A stretch of DNA of 64,000 nt from Spirochaetes bacterium GWB1_60_80 (GTDB taxonomy: Bacteria; Spirochaetota; Spirochaetia; Treponematales; UBA12059): assembly GCA_001829185.1 (NCBI GenBank), contig MIAR01000032.1:144133-208132 (forward strand), read 5' to 3'. Positions 23,503 to 32,325 of the stretch are shown here, piece by piece; the first letter of the stretch is position 1, and every line of letters starts with the position of its first letter. The notes below the pieces were generated by a model. The model was not told the origin of the DNA. It saw only the letters and a program-made list of their open reading frames with translations, and searched no databases. A program made the position numbers and the translations under genes.

Positions 23503-24593
23503 TGCAGGCCTACTTCAAACCGGCGCGCCAGGCTATTCTGGCGGCCCTGGAAGCCTGCCTGGCAGAACAAGGCCAGGTGTACGCCGCAGTAGCGCCGCAA
23601 CTGGGCGCCGATGCGGCTGCCCGCTTGTTGGCGTTCGCCGCCCGGGGCAAATTGCTGCGCGGTTGCCTGGTCTACCTCGGTTACGAACTGGCTGGCGGCG
23701 ACCGAACCGCGCCGGCGGCCGACCAACAGTTGGCCGGCGCCGGCGCCGCGATGGAGCTCTTCCAGTCCGGCTTGCTAATACACGACGACATCATGGATCG
23801 CGACCGAATGCGGCGCGGCGCTCCGACCCTTCACGTCGGCTACGAAACCAGCCTGGCAGCGGATGGAGCCACCGACCCCGGCCACCATGGCGCCGCCCTG
23901 GGCATTTGCGCCGGTGACCTAGCCTTTTTCGCTGCTTTCCAGCTGTTGGCCGGCTTGCCCTGCGATCCGGTCATCGCGCTGCGGGTTTCCGCCTTGGCCG
24001 CCCGGGAACTGGCCCTGGTCGGGGTGGCTCAGATGCAGGACGTAGCCAACGGCGCCCAGCCAGCCGGCGGTGCCGAGCCGACCGCGTCGGACATCCTGCG
24101 GCTGTACCGCTACAAAACAGGCCGCTATACCTTCAGCTTACCCCTGGCTCTTGGCGCTACCCTGGCCAATGCTCCGGCGGCCGATGTGGCGGCCCTGGAA
24201 GCGGCTGGCGAGCGGCTGGGTATCGTCTTCCAGCTCAAGGACGACGAACTGGGACTCTTTGCCGAGCAGGCGGAGCTCGGCAAGCCGGTCGGGTCGGATA
24301 TTAGAGAAGACAAGAAAACTTTCTTGCGCCTGCGCTTGTTGGAGCGAGCCGACGCAGCCGGTCAGTCTGGACTGCGCGCCATCTTCGGGCGGGGACAACC
24401 ATCGGCTGCCGACCTGGCCAGCGTTCGACAAGTCGTGGGGGAGCTGGGCGTGCGCTCCGAGCTGCAAACTATGATGCAGTCAGAAACGGCGTTGGCTCTG
24501 GCAGGCTGCGGCAGCCTCATGAGTCGGGCGTCGTCAGCTGCGGCCGCCGCCTTCCGGGCCTTGGCCGCCTACAGCCTTAACCGGTCATTCTGA
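23502..24593 (+). CDS. Polyprenyl diphosphate synthase-like protein
   Basis: This 363-residue protein has the first Asp-rich motif LLIHDDIMDRDRMRRGAPTLH and a second region FQLKDDELGLFAEQAELGKPVGSDIREDKKT. It would condense isoprenyl diphosphates (C5 units) for quinone, carrier-lipid or carotenoid synthesis. The second motif is DDELG rather than DDxxD, as in some long-chain synthases of actinobacteria. The N-terminal region is rich in alanine. It starts within the stop of the M3 peptidase gene, an unusual partner. The C-terminus overlaps the convergent GH18-like gene by 9 nt. Chain length cannot be predicted safely. Confidence 0.85.
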   Translation: MQAYFKPARQAILAALEACLAEQGQVYAAVAPQLGADAAARLLAFAARGKLLRGCLVYLGYELAGGDRTAPAADQQLAGAGAAMELFQSGLLIHDDIMDRDRMRRGAPTLHVGYETSLAADGATDPGHHGAALGICAGDLAFFAAFQLLAGLPCDPVIALRVSALAARELALVGVAQMQDVANGAQPAGGAEPTASDILRLYRYKTGRYTFSLPLALGATLANAPAADVAALEAAGERLGIVFQLKDDELGLFAEQAELGKPVGSDIREDKKTFLRLRLLERADAAGQSGLRAIFGRGQPSAADLASVRQVVGELGVRSELQTMMQSETALALAGCGSLMSRASSAAAAAFRALAAYSLNRSF

Positions 24594-25727
24594 GGGCGGA
24601 GCGTTCGTTGTTGCGGCCGTGTCCGACAGCGGCGTGGCCAGTAGTGGCCAGATGGCTGGGTCTTCCTGGCCGATGCGCCAGAAACCGATCATGGTGGCGC
24701 CAACGCTGCGGAAGTGGCTGATGCGTCGGTGCAAGGATAGGCTGTCGTCGAAATAGACGGTGTAGGTGATGGTGTCGGTAAAAGAGAAGCTGAGAATATC
24801 CTCGTCCGTCCGAACCGGCACCACATCCCGCTCGCTCAGCATCTGGCTGATTCTGGAATGTTTATAAGCGCCGGCCGGATTGCTGCTGCCCCAGGCCCGA
24901 CCGTAAAAGGGCAAACCCATTATCAATTTTTCAGGGCCGATGGCTTGCAAGGCCCAACTGACCACCTGCCTAGTCCAGCGCAGGGAGGCTACCGGGCCGG
25001 CCGGGCCGCCGCTCCAGTGTTCGTCGTAGGCCATGACGAACACCCGGTCGACGATGGCGGCCAGCACGGCATAGTCATAGGCATCGTTGGTCGGCCTGGT
25101 GCGGCCCGGTACACAGACGCTGAGTACCTTGTCGCCCAGACGCCGCTTGAGTAGGCGCAGGAAATCATAGAAATTAGCGGCATCGCTCAGTGGCAAGGCT
25201 TCGAAGTCGATATTGACGCCGTCGTACGGCGCCGCCGCCGCCGCGATGCTGTCGAGCAAGCGATCACGCAACGGGAAAGCCGGGTCGAGCGCGAAATGGA
25301 CTAGGGTGGGGTTGGACACCTCTGCCACTACCAGGTGCTTGCGGGCGCTTGATGCTGCCAGGCGCGCGATCGGAGGAATACCGTACAGCTCGCCGCGGAC
25401 GTTGATACGGGCCGAGAAATAGGCGATATCGGTGACTGGCGTGTCGGCCAGCAGCAGTCGTTCTTCGGTTTGCATCAGATAGGCCCAGATTTCACGGAAC
25501 GTCTGAATTTCTGGCGCTGCCGGGATCGGAAGGCTAGTTGGCGATACCGCTCCGGGCGCAGCGGCCGCCGGGGTACTTGACGCAAGCAAGGACGCCGTAG
25601 TGCCGGGTGTCGAGACGTCCATCGTTTCCGCAGCGGCCGCACTAGCCGGATCCGCAGCATAGACCACAAGCGGTGATAGGTGCATCCCGGCGAGGAAGAT
25701 GGTAATGGCTATATCTTTGAAGTGCAT
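24585..25727 (-). CDS. Secreted GH18-like glycosidase (YaaH/chitinase-like)
   Basis: The 380-residue product starts at ATG 25727 with a signal peptide (MHFKDIAITIFLAGMHLSPLVVYAAD); a start at 25760 adds eleven residues. After a Ser/Ala/Pro linker the GH18 barrel shows PYDGVNIDFEALPLSDAANFYDFL (catalytic DxxDxE context; here the triad is Asp-Phe-Glu in NIDFEAL), FVMAYDEHWSGGPAGPVASL, LIMGLPFYGRAWG and SVGATMIGFWRIGQEDP. The resemblance is to spore-germination-type and bacterial cell-wall GH18 proteins. In spirochaetes it could act on peptidoglycan or host glycans. No Shine-Dalgarno is evident. Confidence 0.82.
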   Translation of the reverse strand: MHFKDIAITIFLAGMHLSPLVVYAADPASAAAAETMDVSTPGTTASLLASSTPAAAAPGAVSPTSLPIPAAPEIQTFREIWAYLMQTEERLLLADTPVTDIAYFSARINVRGELYGIPPIARLAASSARKHLVVAEVSNPTLVHFALDPAFPLRDRLLDSIAAAAAPYDGVNIDFEALPLSDAANFYDFLRLLKRRLGDKVLSVCVPGRTRPTNDAYDYAVLAAIVDRVFVMAYDEHWSGGPAGPVASLRWTRQVVSWALQAIGPEKLIMGLPFYGRAWGSSNPAGAYKHSRISQMLSERDVVPVRTDEDILSFSFTDTITYTVYFDDSLSLHRRISHFRSVGATMIGFWRIGQEDPAIWPLLATPLSDTAATTNAPPSE

Positions 25728-25789
25728 GCCATTGTATCGGTATTTAGCTAGTACGGGCATAGCAAATTGGAGAAAAACGGCCAGTCGCG

Positions 25790-25818
25790 TTGCAAATTCG
25801 CCAGGCGCGGTATATATT
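25790..25818 (+). promoter_or_regulatory. Candidate promoter of the FecR-to-cyclase operon
   Basis: TTGCAA (25790-25795), a 17-nt spacer and TATATT (25813-25818), 55 nt before the ATG at 25874. The -10 matches 5/6. Confidence 0.5.
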
Positions 25819-25873
25819 TAGCTTTACATTGCCGGATCTGCGCGGCAGGAGTTGTGGTGTCCCGGGAGGGTGT

Positions 25874-26605
25874 ATGAAAAAGCTAATGGTGCTGGTAGCG
25901 ATATTATTGGCTTTTGCCATCCTGCCAGTCTTTGCCGAGGCGATGGTTACGGCGGTACGCGGTACGGTTGGCGTATTAGCCAATGGTCGGCTGCAGGCGG
26001 TCACGGTCGGTATGTCCCTGCTCGACGACGCCACCGTGGTTACCGGCGCTAATTCCGAAGTGGTTATCCAGATCAATAACGGGACCATTACCCTGCGCTC
26101 CTTGACCACCGCCAAACTTACCAACATGACGCGGACCACTGAAGCTTCTACCGCCAACGTTGCGTTACGCGGCGGTACGGTGGTTTCCAACGTCCAGCAG
26201 ATTCAGGGTTTGCGCACCAACTTTACCGTCACCACGCCGGTGGCCACCTCCAGCGTCCGCGGCACCGCGCATACCGTCAGCTTTAGCCAGGAGCGCGGCA
26301 TGGAAGTAGCGGTCAGCAGCGGTTTGGTGGCCATCACCTCCGCCCTGAACGGAAACCGGCCGGTACCCGCCGGCACCGGCTTCACCCAGGCCAACGCCAG
26401 CAGCGCGCCGCTTCTGGCCAGCCAAGCGTCGCTCGCGGCGCCACCGCCGATCGTGGCCGACGCCTTCGCATCCGACGAGGAAGTGGCTATCAGCCAGAAC
26501 GTGGGCAATGCTAGCGCCGTGATTACCGTCATTGTGGATGCCGTCGCGCCGGTTCCGGATATTGACGATGGGCTGACCGATGTGCCCATTGTCATCCTGC
26601 CATGA
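25874..26605 (+). CDS. Secreted FecR-domain protein
   Basis: The start at ATG 25874 has GGGAGGG upstream and begins a Sec signal peptide (MKKLMVLVAILLAFAILPVFAEA). The 243-residue product has a FecR core: VTAVRGTVGVLANGRLQAVTVGMSLLDDATVVTGANSEVVIQINNGTITLRSL, and later TPVATSSVRGTAHTVSF. In classical systems FecR is an anti-sigma partner with a membrane helix; here the protein is exported and no sigma factor is close, so it is a periplasmic or surface FecR-domain protein of the kind common in spirochaetes. The C-terminus is an acidic, Ala/Val-rich tail ending in a short VPIVILP. It is the first gene of the operon that ends with the adenylate cyclase. Confidence 0.85.
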   Translation: MKKLMVLVAILLAFAILPVFAEAMVTAVRGTVGVLANGRLQAVTVGMSLLDDATVVTGANSEVVIQINNGTITLRSLTTAKLTNMTRTTEASTANVALRGGTVVSNVQQIQGLRTNFTVTTPVATSSVRGTAHTVSFSQERGMEVAVSSGLVAITSALNGNRPVPAGTGFTQANASSAPLLASQASLAAPPPIVADAFASDEEVAISQNVGNASAVITVIVDAVAPVPDIDDGLTDVPIVILP

Positions 26606-26663
26606 TCGCGGGCCGGCCGGCGCCCCGTCGGACGGTCATTGAATCCGCTCCGTGAGGTACGCC

Positions 26664-27107
26664 ATGCGAAAGATTGTATTGCTGGTTCTGTTTTCCTGTC
26701 TGCTTGCCCTGCTCCATGCCCAAAGCCTGGAGGAGCTGATTGCGGTCAACGTTAAACCGGTCTGCACCATGACCGACTTTTCCATTATGCTGCCGGCCTT
26801 TCTGGAGAGTTTGGGCGGCGACGATGCCCTGCGTGCCAGATTGGCCGCTTTGGTTGAGCGCTACTCCGGGGATGACTTGCTGACCAAGGGCCGCCTCAGC
26901 CTGCTGGCGGCCCGCGCCGTACGCTTGCAGTCTTCCTTTTTTTTCCTGATTCTGCCAATAGAGCGCTATGCCTTCCGGCTGTTAGTAGCCGAAACCGTTT
27001 TCAGCAATACCAGCAGTGCCGGCGATATCGTATCCGGCCTGGAGTTGATCGACTTCATCGCCAGGTTCGGGCAATTGTACGGAGTCGTTGACGGAGCCAT
27101 CGAATGA
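26664..27107 (+). CDS. Small secreted protein of unknown function in FecR-cyclase operon
   Basis: The start at ATG 26664 has a GAGG site 6 nt upstream. It yields 147 residues with a signal peptide (MRKIVLLVLFSCLLALLHAQ). The mature part is mostly alpha-helical by composition: FSIMLPAFLESLGGDDALRARLAALVERYSGDDLLTKGRLSLLAARAV and a later hydrophobic stretch FFFLILPIERYAFRLLVAE. I do not recognise the family. It begins 58 bp after the FecR gene and its stop overlaps the next start in an ATGA, so translation is coupled to the barrel gene. A role as a periplasmic partner of the barrel is a guess. Confidence 0.65.
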   Translation: MRKIVLLVLFSCLLALLHAQSLEELIAVNVKPVCTMTDFSIMLPAFLESLGGDDALRARLAALVERYSGDDLLTKGRLSLLAARAVRLQSSFFFLILPIERYAFRLLVAETVFSNTSSAGDIVSGLELIDFIARFGQLYGVVDGAIE

Positions 27108-28402
27108 AAAAAATCGCTGTCTGCAGCCTACTTCTGGTTTTTACCGCCTTGCTATCGGCTCAGGAGAATGGCTTCGATATAGATTTCGAGGACGCTTTTT
27201 TCGCCCCGGCGCCGGTGAAGGCCGCCTGGCTGGTCGACTGGGGCGCCGGCCTAGCACCGTATGCGCTGTATCAGAATGCGGCCGCCGATAATAGTCTGAT
27301 CAGTGCCGTGAGCGGCAATCTTTGGTTGCGGCTCAGTCTGCCGGCTCAATGGCAATTGTACGCCAGGGTGAAGGATACATTGCTGTTGTCTTTCCTGCCC
27401 ACACCGGCAGCCGGCGAGTTCCTGACCAACTTGTGGGATATCGACGCTCTGTGGTTCAAGGGTTCTGTTCCGGAGGCCGGTTTCAGCTTTGCGATTGGTC
27501 GCCAGTTGTACGTGCTTGGTTCCGGGCTCCTGCTGGCTGGTACCGGCGATGGGGTTGATTTCAATCTGCTTACCTCGCTGGTGCAGGTCAAGGTTTTCGG
27601 CTTTTACACCGGCCTGGTGCGTCCAGATTTTTCCGGTTTTGCCATGGGCGCCTGGGACCGGGCCAATGGTCCGCAACGGTATGGGGCTGGTTATCGCTTG
27701 GCTGTTAACCTGTTTGGACAGGAATTGGCGCTGGCTGGTTTCTACCAGGGCGATGCTGGATTGGACAGCAGCCAACTCTATACCAGCTGGTACGCTGGCT
27801 TGCAGGCCGAGGGTCTGTTATTCTCGGGGAATTACCTGGTTGAGGCTTATCTTCAAGACGGCTACAGCCCGGACTCGACCGGCATCGCCGCCTTTGGCGG
27901 TACGGCTCGCTACCAGTTGGCTTTTCCTGTTACGACCACGCCGACCGCGACGCTACAGTATTCCTTGGCCTCGGGCGATCCTGATCGCCTGTCCAGCCAG
28001 GGAGCCATCGGCAATGCGGCCGATGCCGACACGGCCTTTCAGACTTTTGGTCAACTGAACAGTGGCTTGGCTTTTCGGCCTTATTTCAGCAACATCAACA
28101 TCCTGCACGCCGGTTTTTCGTTTACGCCATTCGAGTCCCTGGCTGGCGCCTTGCGACGCAGTAGCCTCGGCCTGCGCTATTTTTACTATTTCAAGTATGC
28201 CGCCAGCGGCGTGGTCAATTATGGCGAGGCGACGGTCGATTCCGCCGACCTTGGCCATGGCATCGACCTGACTACCAGCTGGTCACCCTTCAACGACGTC
28301 GGCTTTTTCCTTAACGCTGGATTGTTCCTGCCGGGCGCCGCTTTCGGCGCTGGCGAGCCGCTGCGCATTATGGTTGTCAGCGGCCTGACCCTGTCCTTCT
28401 GA
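27104..28402 (+). CDS. Probable outer-membrane beta-barrel protein
   Basis: This 432-residue protein has a signal peptide (MKKIAVCSLLLVFTALLSAQ) and a mature part of alternating hydrophobic strands with many Tyr, Trp and Gly residues (WQLYARVKDTLLLSF, FSFAIGRQLYVLGSGLLLAG, WYAGLQAEGLLFSGNYLVEAYLQDGY). It ends in VVSGLTLSF with a terminal Phe, the usual outer-membrane assembly signal. Part of it (GRQLYVLGSG) recalls alginate-export or porin-like barrels, but I cannot name a family. The ATGA overlap with the small gene upstream and a 13-bp gap before the cyclase place it inside the operon. Confidence 0.7.
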   Translation: MKKIAVCSLLLVFTALLSAQENGFDIDFEDAFFAPAPVKAAWLVDWGAGLAPYALYQNAAADNSLISAVSGNLWLRLSLPAQWQLYARVKDTLLLSFLPTPAAGEFLTNLWDIDALWFKGSVPEAGFSFAIGRQLYVLGSGLLLAGTGDGVDFNLLTSLVQVKVFGFYTGLVRPDFSGFAMGAWDRANGPQRYGAGYRLAVNLFGQELALAGFYQGDAGLDSSQLYTSWYAGLQAEGLLFSGNYLVEAYLQDGYSPDSTGIAAFGGTARYQLAFPVTTTPTATLQYSLASGDPDRLSSQGAIGNAADADTAFQTFGQLNSGLAFRPYFSNINILHAGFSFTPFESLAGALRRSSLGLRYFYYFKYAASGVVNYGEATVDSADLGHGIDLTTSWSPFNDVGFFLNAGLFLPGAAFGAGEPLRIMVVSGLTLSF

Positions 28403-28415
28403 GGGCGCCCCGAGC

Positions 28416-31007
28416 ATGAAAAAATGGTTGGCCAGGCTGGGCAGGTTCACCAAGGGGCTGCGTGGCGCCTTGATCATCACCCTGCTCATGGTCGGCCTGG
28501 TGCTGGCCTTTTCCTTCACCTCGGCGCATGACCGCTTGGAGTACGTTTTCTATGATCTGCGCTTCCGCTTCAAGCCAAAGGCCAAGCCCCTGCCCGAGCT
28601 GGTGCTGCTCAATGTCGACGACGCCAGCATCGCCGCCGTCGGGGTTTACCCCTGGCCGCGGCATTATTACGCCCAGGCGCTCCGCCAAGCCCAGCAGGCC
28701 GGCCTGGCATCCCTGATTTTCGACTTCCAGTTCATTGATGAGTCATTGCCGCTCTTGAATCCGGCCGGCTTTAATTATCTATACGATATCCTGAGCCAGG
28801 GGCAGCCGCTGGCGCCGGATGACTTGGGTCTAGTGGCCATCGACAACGACGCCGAACTGGCGGCGGCCGTGGCCGGCTTTAGCGGCACGGTGATGCCCTT
28901 TTCTTTTGCCAGGCTCAAGACGGGCCAGGAAGATCAAAGCCTTGTACGCTTGGCGGCCATTGCGCGCTTTACCGAGCTGGCATCGCTGCCACTGCCAGTC
29001 GGTCGCGAGGCGGAGTTCCGCGCCCTGGTCGAACTTGACCGTGTCGAGATCAATTATCCGATTACCAGCTTGATACACGCCAGTCAGCATTTCGGCTACG
29101 TGGACAGCGACCCGGATTTGGATGGCACCCATCGCCGCGTCAGGCTGGTTCGTGTTTTTGCTGACCGAATCTATCTCCATCTCAGCCTGGTTACCTTCCT
29201 GCAGATGTGCGGGGTCGACCTGTCGGCGCTGGAGCTGTACCCTGGGCGCCAACTGGTCATCAAGAATGCCGTCCACCCGGTTACCGGGTATCGTGGCGAC
29301 ATCGTCATCCCCCTCGACGACCAGTGCGCCATCATGCTGGACTGGCTGGGTGATTTCAGCCAGACAGCGCGGCCGGTGTCGGCCTACGCCCTGTTCGAAT
29401 ATCCGCAACACGCCGAAGCCTTTGAATTCCAATTGATGTTGCGCGACATGGTATCCGGCCAAAGTACCCGCATGGAGCTGTCGGCCCGGCTGGAGGAACT
29501 GAAAGCGGCTATCCTGGCCGAGCTGGATTTTGAGGTCCGCTTTCCCTTGCGGCAGGAGTACCAGACCGTGTTGGCCGAGTACCGGCGCGTCATCCAGGGC
29601 TACCTTGATACGCTCCAGGCCGAGATTGATGACTTGCTGGCCCGGCGGGCTGGTGGCGAGACGGTCGATGAAACCAGCATCGCCGAGATTCGGACCCTGA
29701 TTACGGCCATCAACATCCGGACCGAAGTCGATTACCTGTTCGACTCGGTGGCCGTCATTGGCTTGACCGCCACCGGCACCCAGGACGAGGGCGTCACGCC
29801 GCTGTCCAATTCCTACTGGATGGTCGGTTCGTATCCGACAGCCATCAATACCCTGGCGCGCGGTCGCTTCCTGCACCAGGCGCCCTGGTGGGCCGAGTTC
29901 TGCGCTGTATTGGTGTTAGCGTCGCTGTTGACCTGGTTTATCCACAAGCGGGGCGCGACAGCCTCCTACCTCGCCATTGCCTTGGTCTTGGTGGCCGTCA
30001 ATGTGGCGGTGGTGCTGGCCTTCTTCCAGGCTTACCTGTGGATTGACCAGCTCAGCGCCAATCTAGCCTTATTACTGCCGTCGGCCTTGATCATGATCGG
30101 CAAGTTTGCCGGCGAGGAAGAAAACCGCCGCTTTATTCAGGGAGCCTTTTCCAAGTACCTGTCGCAGGAAGTCATCGAGCAGATTATCGCTAACCCGGAC
30201 GCCCTCAAGCTGGGCGGCGATTCCTGCCAGATTACCACCTTTTTCTCCGATGTAGCCGGCTTTTCGAGTATCTCGGAGCAATTGACCGCCGAGGGCCTGG
30301 TGCAGTTGTTGAATGAATACCTGTCCGAGATGACCGACATTATTATGAAGAACCGCGGCACAGTGGACAAATATGAAGGCGATGCCATCATGGCCTTCTG
30401 GGGCGCGCCATTGCACTACCCGGATCATCCGTATCAAGCCTGTCTGTCGGCGATTGAGATGCAGCATCGCCTGGCGGAAATGCGGACAGTCTGGCGCCAA
30501 CAGGGCCGGCATGAGCTCAAGGTGCGCATGGGTATAAACTCCGGGCGGGCGGTAGCCGGCAACATGGGCTCGCATTCGCGCCTCAGTTATACGGTGATGG
30601 GCGACTCGGTCAACCTAGCTTCGCGGCTGGAGGGCGCCAACAAGTTCTACGGCACCTACAACATGGTCAGCCAGTTTACCTATGAGGCTATCAAGGACCG
30701 CTTCCGTTGCCGCGAGCTGGACCTGATCCGGGTGGTGGGCAAGAGCGAGCCGATCAGGGTCTACGAGTTGCTGGATATGCCGACGGCAATCCCGGACCAG
30801 CGGCAGGCCGCCCTGGCCGAGTATGAACGGGGGCTCGAGCTGTACCATGACAGGCGTTGGCAGGAAGCCCGGAACAGCTTTGTCCGGGTCCTGAAAATTG
30901 ATGGCGACGATGCGCCGGCCAAGGTCTATTACAAGCGCTGCGAGACCTTCCTCAAGAAGCCACCGGAGGGGGATTGGGATGGTGTCTTCAATCTAAGCTC
31001 CAAATAA
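28416..31007 (+). CDS. CHASE2-domain class III adenylate cyclase
   Basis: This 863-residue protein has a membrane helix (about 17-36), an extracytoplasmic CHASE2 domain (VLLNVDDASIAAVGVYPWPRHYYAQAL near 65-95, LIFDFQFIDES) carrying an inserted coiled-coil region (about 355-430), then three membrane helices (about 495-565) and a class III cyclase domain (about 600-780). Catalytic parts are visible: TTFFSDVAGF (metal Asp), VDKYEGDAIMAFW (Lys and metal Asp) and SYTVMGDSVNLASRLEG (Thr, Asn and Arg). The Lys/Thr pair points to ATP and not GTP. The C-terminus has a TPR-like helix pair. It makes cAMP on the cytoplasmic side in response to an outside signal. Last gene of the FecR operon, followed by a strong terminator. 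Confidence 0.92.
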   Translation: MKKWLARLGRFTKGLRGALIITLLMVGLVLAFSFTSAHDRLEYVFYDLRFRFKPKAKPLPELVLLNVDDASIAAVGVYPWPRHYYAQALRQAQQAGLASLIFDFQFIDESLPLLNPAGFNYLYDILSQGQPLAPDDLGLVAIDNDAELAAAVAGFSGTVMPFSFARLKTGQEDQSLVRLAAIARFTELASLPLPVGREAEFRALVELDRVEINYPITSLIHASQHFGYVDSDPDLDGTHRRVRLVRVFADRIYLHLSLVTFLQMCGVDLSALELYPGRQLVIKNAVHPVTGYRGDIVIPLDDQCAIMLDWLGDFSQTARPVSAYALFEYPQHAEAFEFQLMLRDMVSGQSTRMELSARLEELKAAILAELDFEVRFPLRQEYQTVLAEYRRVIQGYLDTLQAEIDDLLARRAGGETVDETSIAEIRTLITAINIRTEVDYLFDSVAVIGLTATGTQDEGVTPLSNSYWMVGSYPTAINTLARGRFLHQAPWWAEFCAVLVLASLLTWFIHKRGATASYLAIALVLVAVNVAVVLAFFQAYLWIDQLSANLALLLPSALIMIGKFAGEEENRRFIQGAFSKYLSQEVIEQIIANPDALKLGGDSCQITTFFSDVAGFSSISEQLTAEGLVQLLNEYLSEMTDIIMKNRGTVDKYEGDAIMAFWGAPLHYPDHPYQACLSAIEMQHRLAEMRTVWRQQGRHELKVRMGINSGRAVAGNMGSHSRLSYTVMGDSVNLASRLEGANKFYGTYNMVSQFTYEAIKDRFRCRELDLIRVVGKSEPIRVYELLDMPTAIPDQRQAALAEYERGLELYHDRRWQEARNSFVRVLKIDGDDAPAKVYYKRCETFLKKPPEGDWDGVFNLSSK

Positions 31008-31042
31008 ACAAAAGGCCACCCGATGCAGGTGGCCTTTTGTTT
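31006..31042. terminator. Perfect 15-bp hairpin terminator after the cyclase operon
   Basis: AAACAAAAGGCCACC (31006-31020) pairs perfectly with GGTGGCCTTTTGTTT (31028-31042) around a 7-nt loop. The A and T tracts make it work in both directions; the gene at 31111 converges on it. Confidence 0.9.
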
Positions 31043-31110: not shown

Positions 31111-32325
31111 TCAACGCCGAAGTTGGGCGCTGTTGTTGGTGGTGACGCGAACCAGTTCCATGGTGAAACTGTCGTCGCCAGTGCGGGCCTGGAAGCGGAC
31201 GATGCCGCCGGGTACGGTCGAGGCCAGCCACCAGCGGTAGTTGTAGTCGCTACCCTCGTCGTCCTGGCCGCTCATCTCTACCACATCGGCGTTGAAGGCG
31301 CCGGCGCCAACCCGGATCTGTTCCTTGCGGGTGGACTGGGCCAGTAAGCTGTCGGTGATTTCAGTGCCTTCGTAATAGGCGGCGTAGCTGTCGCCAGAGG
31401 GAACGATGCGAACCGCTTCGCCTTCATCTATTTTGTACCACAGCTCAAGCACCTTGGCTTCGCGGTTGATGCGGAATTCCCAGGTTATCGCTTCGTCGTC
31501 GGTGAAGTACTTGAGGCGCCACCACTGGGTGCCATCGCTTTCTTGGCTTAGGAAGGCGCGCTCGATGGAGAAGCGGTCGCTATCGCCGTCGGTGACTTGC
31601 CAAACCACGCCTTGCCCGGGTGTAAAATTGGCTTGCAGAAAGTGGCCGCCGGTATAGAAAGACATGAAGTAGTAGGCATAGAAACTGGCCATGATGGCCG
31701 ACTGCGCGGCCGAAACGCCGACTTCGCGGGCCTCGGCCCAGGTACCGGCCAGGCTGCCGACTGCGGCTGGCGGATTGCCCAGGCGCAGGCCGCCTTGCAG
31801 GCTGAAACCGGACGTGCTGCCCCATTGGTTGTAACCGACGCCGACATACAGGTCAGGAGTCAGGAAATAATTAGCGCCGCTGGAGGCCACGAACACCAAA
31901 CCGGCGCCGGCCGGCGACAGCAGGTTATAACCTACGCCAGCGCGGGCGAAAAAGTCAATTTGAGCCAGGTACTCCGAGCCGGGGAAATCGAAGCCGCGGA
32001 AGCCGGCGTGGAAGGCCACCTGTACGCCGGCACCGGCCTCAAGGCCGGGGGCGACCGAGCCAAGGTTCAAGCCGATGTGGCCGATCGGGGCCAAGCCGAT
32101 ATCGATGAACGCGGTACTGCCCACCACCGGCTTATAGAACAGGATGTCCACCGAAGGCTCTAGCCCAAGAACCAAGGCTCCGCCGTTCCAACCGGCCGTG
32201 GCGGCTAGTTGCGGAACCAGGTTGCCTTGTCCGTAGTTGCTGCCCCAGACGATCTCTTCCTGAGCGCAGAGTACTCCCGGCAGGCAGATGCCCAGAATCA
32301 GGCATGTCAACAATTTGTACTTCAT
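31111..32325 (-). CDS. Secreted protein, probable outer-membrane barrel with C-terminal domain, unknown family
   Basis: This 404-residue protein starts after a GGAAGGGG site with a signal peptide (MKYKLLTCLILGICLPGVLCAQ). Residues about 30-200 are strand-like and Gly-rich (GGALVLGLEPSVDILFYKPVVGS, GAGVQVAFHAGFRGFDF, YFLTPDLYVGVGYNQWGS), like a small outer-membrane barrel. The second half (about 215-404) is different: a soluble domain with DSDRFSIERAFLSQESDGTQWWRLKYFTDDEAITWEFRINREAKVLELWY, perhaps a beta domain. I do not recognise the family. It stands alone, convergent with the cyclase operon across the shared terminator. Confidence 0.6.
   Translation of the reverse strand: MKYKLLTCLILGICLPGVLCAQEEIVWGSNYGQGNLVPQLAATAGWNGGALVLGLEPSVDILFYKPVVGSTAFIDIGLAPIGHIGLNLGSVAPGLEAGAGVQVAFHAGFRGFDFPGSEYLAQIDFFARAGVGYNLLSPAGAGLVFVASSGANYFLTPDLYVGVGYNQWGSTSGFSLQGGLRLGNPPAAVGSLAGTWAEAREVGVSAAQSAIMASFYAYYFMSFYTGGHFLQANFTPGQGVVWQVTDGDSDRFSIERAFLSQESDGTQWWRLKYFTDDEAITWEFRINREAKVLELWYKIDEGEAVRIVPSGDSYAAYYEGTEITDSLLAQSTRKEQIRVGAGAFNADVVEMSGQDDEGSDYNYRWWLASTVPGGIVRFQARTGDDSFTMELVRVTTNNSAQLRR

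Follow-up and report, generated by a model that had tools for sequence, protein, structure and literature searches.

The question raised by this locus is whether four adjacent genes, encoding a FecR-domain protein, a small secreted protein, an outer-membrane β-barrel and a CHASE2 adenylate cyclase, serve a single function. The window (the whole analysed stretch of 64,000 nucleotides from Spirochaetes bacterium GWB1_60_80) had been read from its letters as holding an envelope sensor in which the first three proteins pass a signal to the CHASE2 domain and so set cAMP. The operon was re-examined here by profile searches, structure modelling and comparison of gene neighbourhoods.

Layout of the operon

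The features of the window used in the analysis were as follows.

24585..25760, − strand: GH18-family secreted protein, divergent neighbour (Pfam GH18, E = 1.5e-21)
25790..25818, + strand: candidate sigma-70-type promoter TTGCAA-N17-TATATT (9/12 consensus matches)
25874..26605, + strand: FecR-domain gene, ATG at 25874, stop ending at 26605 (Pfam FecR, E = 7e-7)
26664..27107, + strand: gene for the small secreted protein (no family match; SLH-like fold predicted)
27104..28402, + strand: outer-membrane β-barrel gene (Pfam Alginate_exp, 4e-11)
28416..31007, + strand: CHASE2 adenylate cyclase gene (CHASE2, 2e-28; Guanylate_cyc, 2e-22)
28497..29408, + strand: CHASE2 domain of the cyclase, periplasmic sensor (Pfam stretch 28–331)
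30228..30752, + strand: class III cyclase catalytic domain (Pfam stretch 605–779)
30972..31004, + strand: conserved cyclase C-terminal tail DWDGVFNLSSK (W.GV in relatives)
31006..31042, + strand: perfect 15 bp terminator hairpin, arms 31006–31020 and 31028–31042 (inverted repeat; fold −27.4 kcal/mol, z −4.7)

The predicted arrangement of four tightly spaced genes on one strand was borne out by the ORF coordinates, including the ATGA overlap of the small-protein and barrel genes (the barrel start lies inside the small-protein gene), the 13 bp gap between the barrel and cyclase genes and the perfect hairpin after the operon. An ORF start for FecR at 25790 was rejected as an upstream extension of the gene. 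The promoter proposed in front of the operon proved weak: similar sites occur at 6 per 9 kb, within the range of shuffled sequence (2.6 ± 1.7 expected), and no conservation of the −35 part was found in a sister species (locus L033). As predicted, no sigma factor and no TonB receptor turned up among the flanking genes scanned; the flanks hold the GH18 gene, a 404-residue protein without a Pfam family and a hybrid kinase. The 404-residue protein (window 31111–32325, − strand) has a signal peptide and lies between the operon and the hybrid histidine kinase.

Cyclase, FecR protein and barrel

The cyclase (863 residues) has hydrophobic stretches arranged 1+3, the usual CHASE2 layout. Its metal-binding residues (D612/D656), substrate-selecting K652 and catalytic R737 do not vary among the 53 cyclases compared; N733 is kept in 52, the remaining cyclase having one unresolved letter. 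The W.GV tail motif was found within the last 40 residues of 49 of 53 relatives; neither the solitary CHASE2 cyclase of this genome nor CyaK of Sinorhizobium meliloti has it. Cyclic-nucleotide signalling is unusually rich in this genome (G000), which gave 24 class III cyclase and 26 cNMP-binding domain matches.

The FecR protein (243 residues) has a sole hydrophobic stretch, N-terminal and resembling a signal peptide, and is predicted to be periplasmic on this basis, in line with the earlier reading of it as secreted. FecR domains gave 10 matches in this 3.6 Mb genome, so that about 0.05 FecR genes would be expected by chance per 17 kb. A second FecR protein (1063-residue frame) lies beside a class III cyclase (866-residue frame) about 0.7–1.9 kb past the window end (G000:C32:208814–210054), a pair that resembles the FecR and HAMP-cyclase pair of treponemes.

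The barrel protein (432 residues) likewise has one signal-peptide-like hydrophobic stretch at its N-terminus. Its AlphaFold (AF2) model (pLDDT 83) matched AlgE with Z = 32.4 over 345 residues, and the protein is accordingly modelled as an AlgE-like barrel of about 18 strands. The barrel profile also matched the SLH porin OmpM1 (E = 7e-4; fold Z = 17.9).

Fold of the small protein

The small protein (147 residues) carries a single hydrophobic stretch, N-terminal and signal-peptide-like. No family was matched in Pfam, NCBIfam or PHROG, and no credible match was obtained in a sequence search of solved structures. A search of viral contigs found nothing. An AF2 model was built from 44 sequences (pLDDT 88, pTM 0.78). 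In structural comparison with VIA the top 14 matches were all SLH domains or SLH-bearing S-layer chains (Z = 7.8–9.2, alignments of 96–118 residues), and the next, unrelated match had Z = 3.8; helical folds may reach Z = 7.8–9.2 by chance, and the assignment rests on the gap and the unanimity of the matches rather than on Z. Foldseek comparison with SLH domains gave E = 0.05–1.1 and probabilities of 0.44–1.0. The Pfam SLH model matched none of the 44 family members, and hhalign of the family gave a probability of 65% (P = 6e-5) with one mixed SLH alignment and 5–11% with two others. The original prediction that the small protein has no recognised family thus stands for the sequence libraries and not for the fold, which the confident model places as SLH-like.

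Fusions hint independently at its role. The small protein and barrel form one ORF in relative L050. In L108 and L110 the small protein is joined to a domain of the OmpA family (Pfam, 5e-18 and 7e-21), which is known for peptidoglycan binding. The largest small-protein ORFs of L197 and L224 were rejected as fusions, being artefacts of upstream read-through. An SLH-domain lipoprotein elsewhere in this genome (G000:C23:20974–21093, L259) carries the motif PVSGLEFF, which resembles VSGxE of the small-protein family.

Distribution among spirochaetes

A small-protein profile built from 19 sequences was run against 393 genomes of the phylum and matched 171 of them, in 77 of 168 genera. Relatives of the same gene order were retrieved with the small protein as the query, and the same loci with the barrel. 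Within 81 loci around small-protein matches, FecR adjoined in 80, the barrel in 79 and the CHASE2 cyclase in 59; barrels seemingly missing from L087 and L088 are present, masked by an overlapping ORF. No cyclase was found near the triad of FecR, small protein and barrel in the other 22 loci, some of which are contig ends; these triads may act on a different output or have a cyclase supplied in trans.

The 81 loci had been selected via the small protein or the barrel, and the test was therefore rerun from the cyclase end with 80 loci from named genomes, for which the CHASE2 half of the cyclase was the sole criterion of selection. Thirty-two of these have 3.5 kb or more on each side; 22 of the 32 held the small protein, barrel and FecR, and another three held at least one of them. 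Where CHASE2 cyclases stand alone in this genus, no such genes were found nearby. The 4-base overlap of the small-protein and barrel genes was found again in 44/74 and 25/39 loci, a recurrence that argues against a chance architecture. The neighbourhood search suggested with the original prediction therefore recovers the set phylum-wide, and adjacency in this genome only, which would have told against the reading, is contradicted since the unit is conserved far beyond it.

Two gene orders occur: FecR–small protein–barrel–cyclase, as in the window, and small protein–barrel–FecR with a usually divergent cyclase, as in most other loci. A tree of 52 cyclases placed the FecR-first set on one side of a branch with support 88/96 (11 of its 12 rows at 100/100), with the clade of the window cyclase sister to genomes of another class (f39). 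This genome carries one module of each order, and the other one (L083) groups with its own order; the window module is therefore a second, separately inherited copy, derived either by transfer or by an old duplication. Cultured species with the module include Treponema vincentii, Breznakiella homolactica, Marispirochaeta associata and Alkalispirochaeta alkalica.

A version from Treponema pallidum was also considered. The 1.1 Mb genome (G032) gave no small-protein or CHASE2 match, and its FecR gene lies in another operon with a HAMP cyclase and an fn3-like protein; it was therefore discounted as belonging to a different system. This arrangement of HAMP-type cyclase, FecR and a third secreted protein (fn3-like in L164) was seen at L164 5609–10473 (G032) and also at L167 and L168. 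The L164 operon is, by position, presumably TP0485–TP0484–TP0483; if so, the reported fibronectin-binding protein of T. pallidum may belong to a cyclase operon. At L095 (G148:C1:175700–192200) two barrel–FecR pairs were found, and another match to the small protein, 4 kb away, contains a TGA stop and appears to be a decaying duplicate.

Comparison with known systems

In the plant symbiont S. meliloti, cAMP rises in response to protein signals by way of NsrA and CHASE2 cyclases including CyaK (PMC7529298, PMC13001267). The NsrA-CyaK/CyaD1/CyaD2-Clr system shares with the spirochaete module an exported FecR domain, an outer-membrane barrel and an adjacent CHASE2 adenylate cyclase. The anatomy of NsrA was taken from the pSymB sequence (L169:3217–6876): FecR, TPRs and barrel form one chain, and the gene overlaps that of CyaK. 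Barrel, FecR and a periplasmic helical part are thus encoded upstream of the cyclase, with cAMP as the output (PMC7529298, PMC13001267). NsrA is, however, a single chain of 1219 residues with TPRs, whereas the spirochaete module has three separate proteins, one of them SLH-like, and no TPR protein; the NsrA system has no lipoprotein, and the likeness of the barrels is one of layout. By this analogy the spirochaete module reads as a split form of NsrA with an SLH-like protein in place of the TPRs. On an Ensifer plasmid (NZ_CP070354.1, L170), FecR, TPR and CHASE2-cyclase genes lie by NHLP bacteriocin-export genes and a gene for a cyclic-nucleotide-binding protein.

A Campylobacterota cluster predicted to form one pathway comprises a CHASE2 cyclase, a FecR-domain outer-membrane protein, a TPR protein and a phosphodiesterase (PMC9239204). 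It shares the pairing of CHASE2 cyclase and FecR, but there FecR is carried on the outer-membrane protein, phosphodiesterase and TPR proteins are present and an SLH-like protein is not described (PMC9239204). In Burkholderia a LysM-FecR protein lies beside a CHASE2 histidine kinase (PMC5192318); FecR and a wall-binding type of domain again accompany a CHASE2 sensor, but LysM replaces the SLH-like domain, the output is a histidine kinase and there is no barrel. The FecA-FecR-FecI system shares the periplasmic FecR domain, which in the window has no adjoining sigma factor or TonB receptor and is not membrane-anchored. The SLH porin OmpM of diderm Terrabacteria combines an SLH-type domain with a barrel (PMC10628300), but as one trimeric chain with a coiled coil, while in the spirochaete module the two parts are separate, apart from the one fused relative, and tied to a cyclase.

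The suggestion that the system may be undescribed therefore holds in part. The FecR–barrel–CHASE2 kind is already known from NsrA-CyaK; the split, phylum-wide form with its SLH-like partner and modular lipoprotein is new, no description of it having been found in the open-licence literature.

Proposed mechanism and alternatives

The operon probably encodes one envelope-spanning sensor that sets cAMP, and the idea of an envelope-to-cAMP route is well supported by the NsrA-CyaK analogy and by conservation. The AlgE-like barrel would be embedded in the outer membrane and paired, on the periplasmic side, with the SLH-like protein, which would be produced together with it from the overlapping genes and probably contacts the cell wall. 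FecR would act as a soluble adaptor in physical contact with both sides, relaying the state of the barrel–small-protein complex inwards to the CHASE2 domain; the cyclase would then alter its cAMP output, which the cNMP-binding proteins of the cell would read. The original scheme is partly supported, by conservation of the unit and by the layout of NsrA-CyaK, and is modified in that the small protein is SLH-like and a lipoprotein often joins elsewhere. The occurrence of FecR domains in many contexts counts against a single-sensor reading.

The barrel, SLH-like protein and FecR might instead make up a channel or tether in the outer membrane (a porin or exporter of the AlgE/OmpM kind) that is merely co-regulated with the cyclase and does not set cAMP. 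The likeness of the barrel to AlgE and OmpM1 and the triads lacking a nearby CHASE2 cyclase would fit such a role. We nevertheless consider it unlikely, given that the CHASE2 half alone picks out the triad in most complete loci, that the cyclase is retained in both gene orders and that NsrA provides a precedent for signalling.

Among 106 same-strand genes next to the triad, 55 encode lipoproteins (41 of 63 on the downstream side), compared with about 7% of other ORFs; lipoproteins were called by a crude lipobox rule and this background includes spurious ORFs. They lie mostly downstream of FecR and share a start, C...G.[IV].[IL], followed by varied ends (GLUG, InlB-type, cadherin-like or β-helix). 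A lipoprotein with surface-type ends is a frequent fifth member of the module in relatives. This association, together with the variable C-terminal modules behind a similar start, could indicate that the triad assembles or displays the adjacent lipoprotein as a surface adhesin and that the cyclase reports on or tunes the display. Such a function appears improbable: many loci have no lipoprotein, no lipoprotein gene lies beside the operon in the window, so that the lipoprotein is not obligatory, and we know of no role of AlgE-type barrels of about 18 strands as lipoprotein exporters. Within the sensor reading, the surface-type lipoprotein encoded next to the triad in relatives probably supplies recognition of the ligand. 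The GH18 gene is a possible accessory of the module; L034 and L036 show GH18, then a lipoprotein, then the module.

A chance or purely housekeeping neighbourhood, which the sequence-based nature of the functional link and the chance-level promoter match would allow, is scarcely credible in view of conservation across families and classes, the number of genomes matched, linkage from both ends, the recurring overlap and the cyclase tree.

Implications

For CHASE2 receptors, the route by which a signal passes from the outer membrane to a cyclase in the inner membrane is, to our knowledge, unsolved. The sensor proposed here presents the single-chain receptor NsrA broken into separately testable proteins that are conserved over a phylum. 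With the SLH-like assignment an orphan family gains a predicted fold and a wall-binding function that can be tested; the assignment is also relevant to the distribution of SLH-type tethers among diderm bacteria. Spirochaetes are usually placed in Gracilicutes. SLH porins reportedly do not occur in this group, OmpM being completely absent (PMC10628300), which gives the SLH-like partner its importance. It is possible, though less likely than not, that the SLH-like protein and the AlgE-like barrel form a split SLH-porin-like tether which at the same time senses how the outer membrane is connected to the cell wall, acting via FecR on CHASE2 and cAMP, with possibly interchangeable lipoprotein inputs. 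If true, this would be a second-messenger system coupled to a wall tether in a group thought to be without SLH porins.
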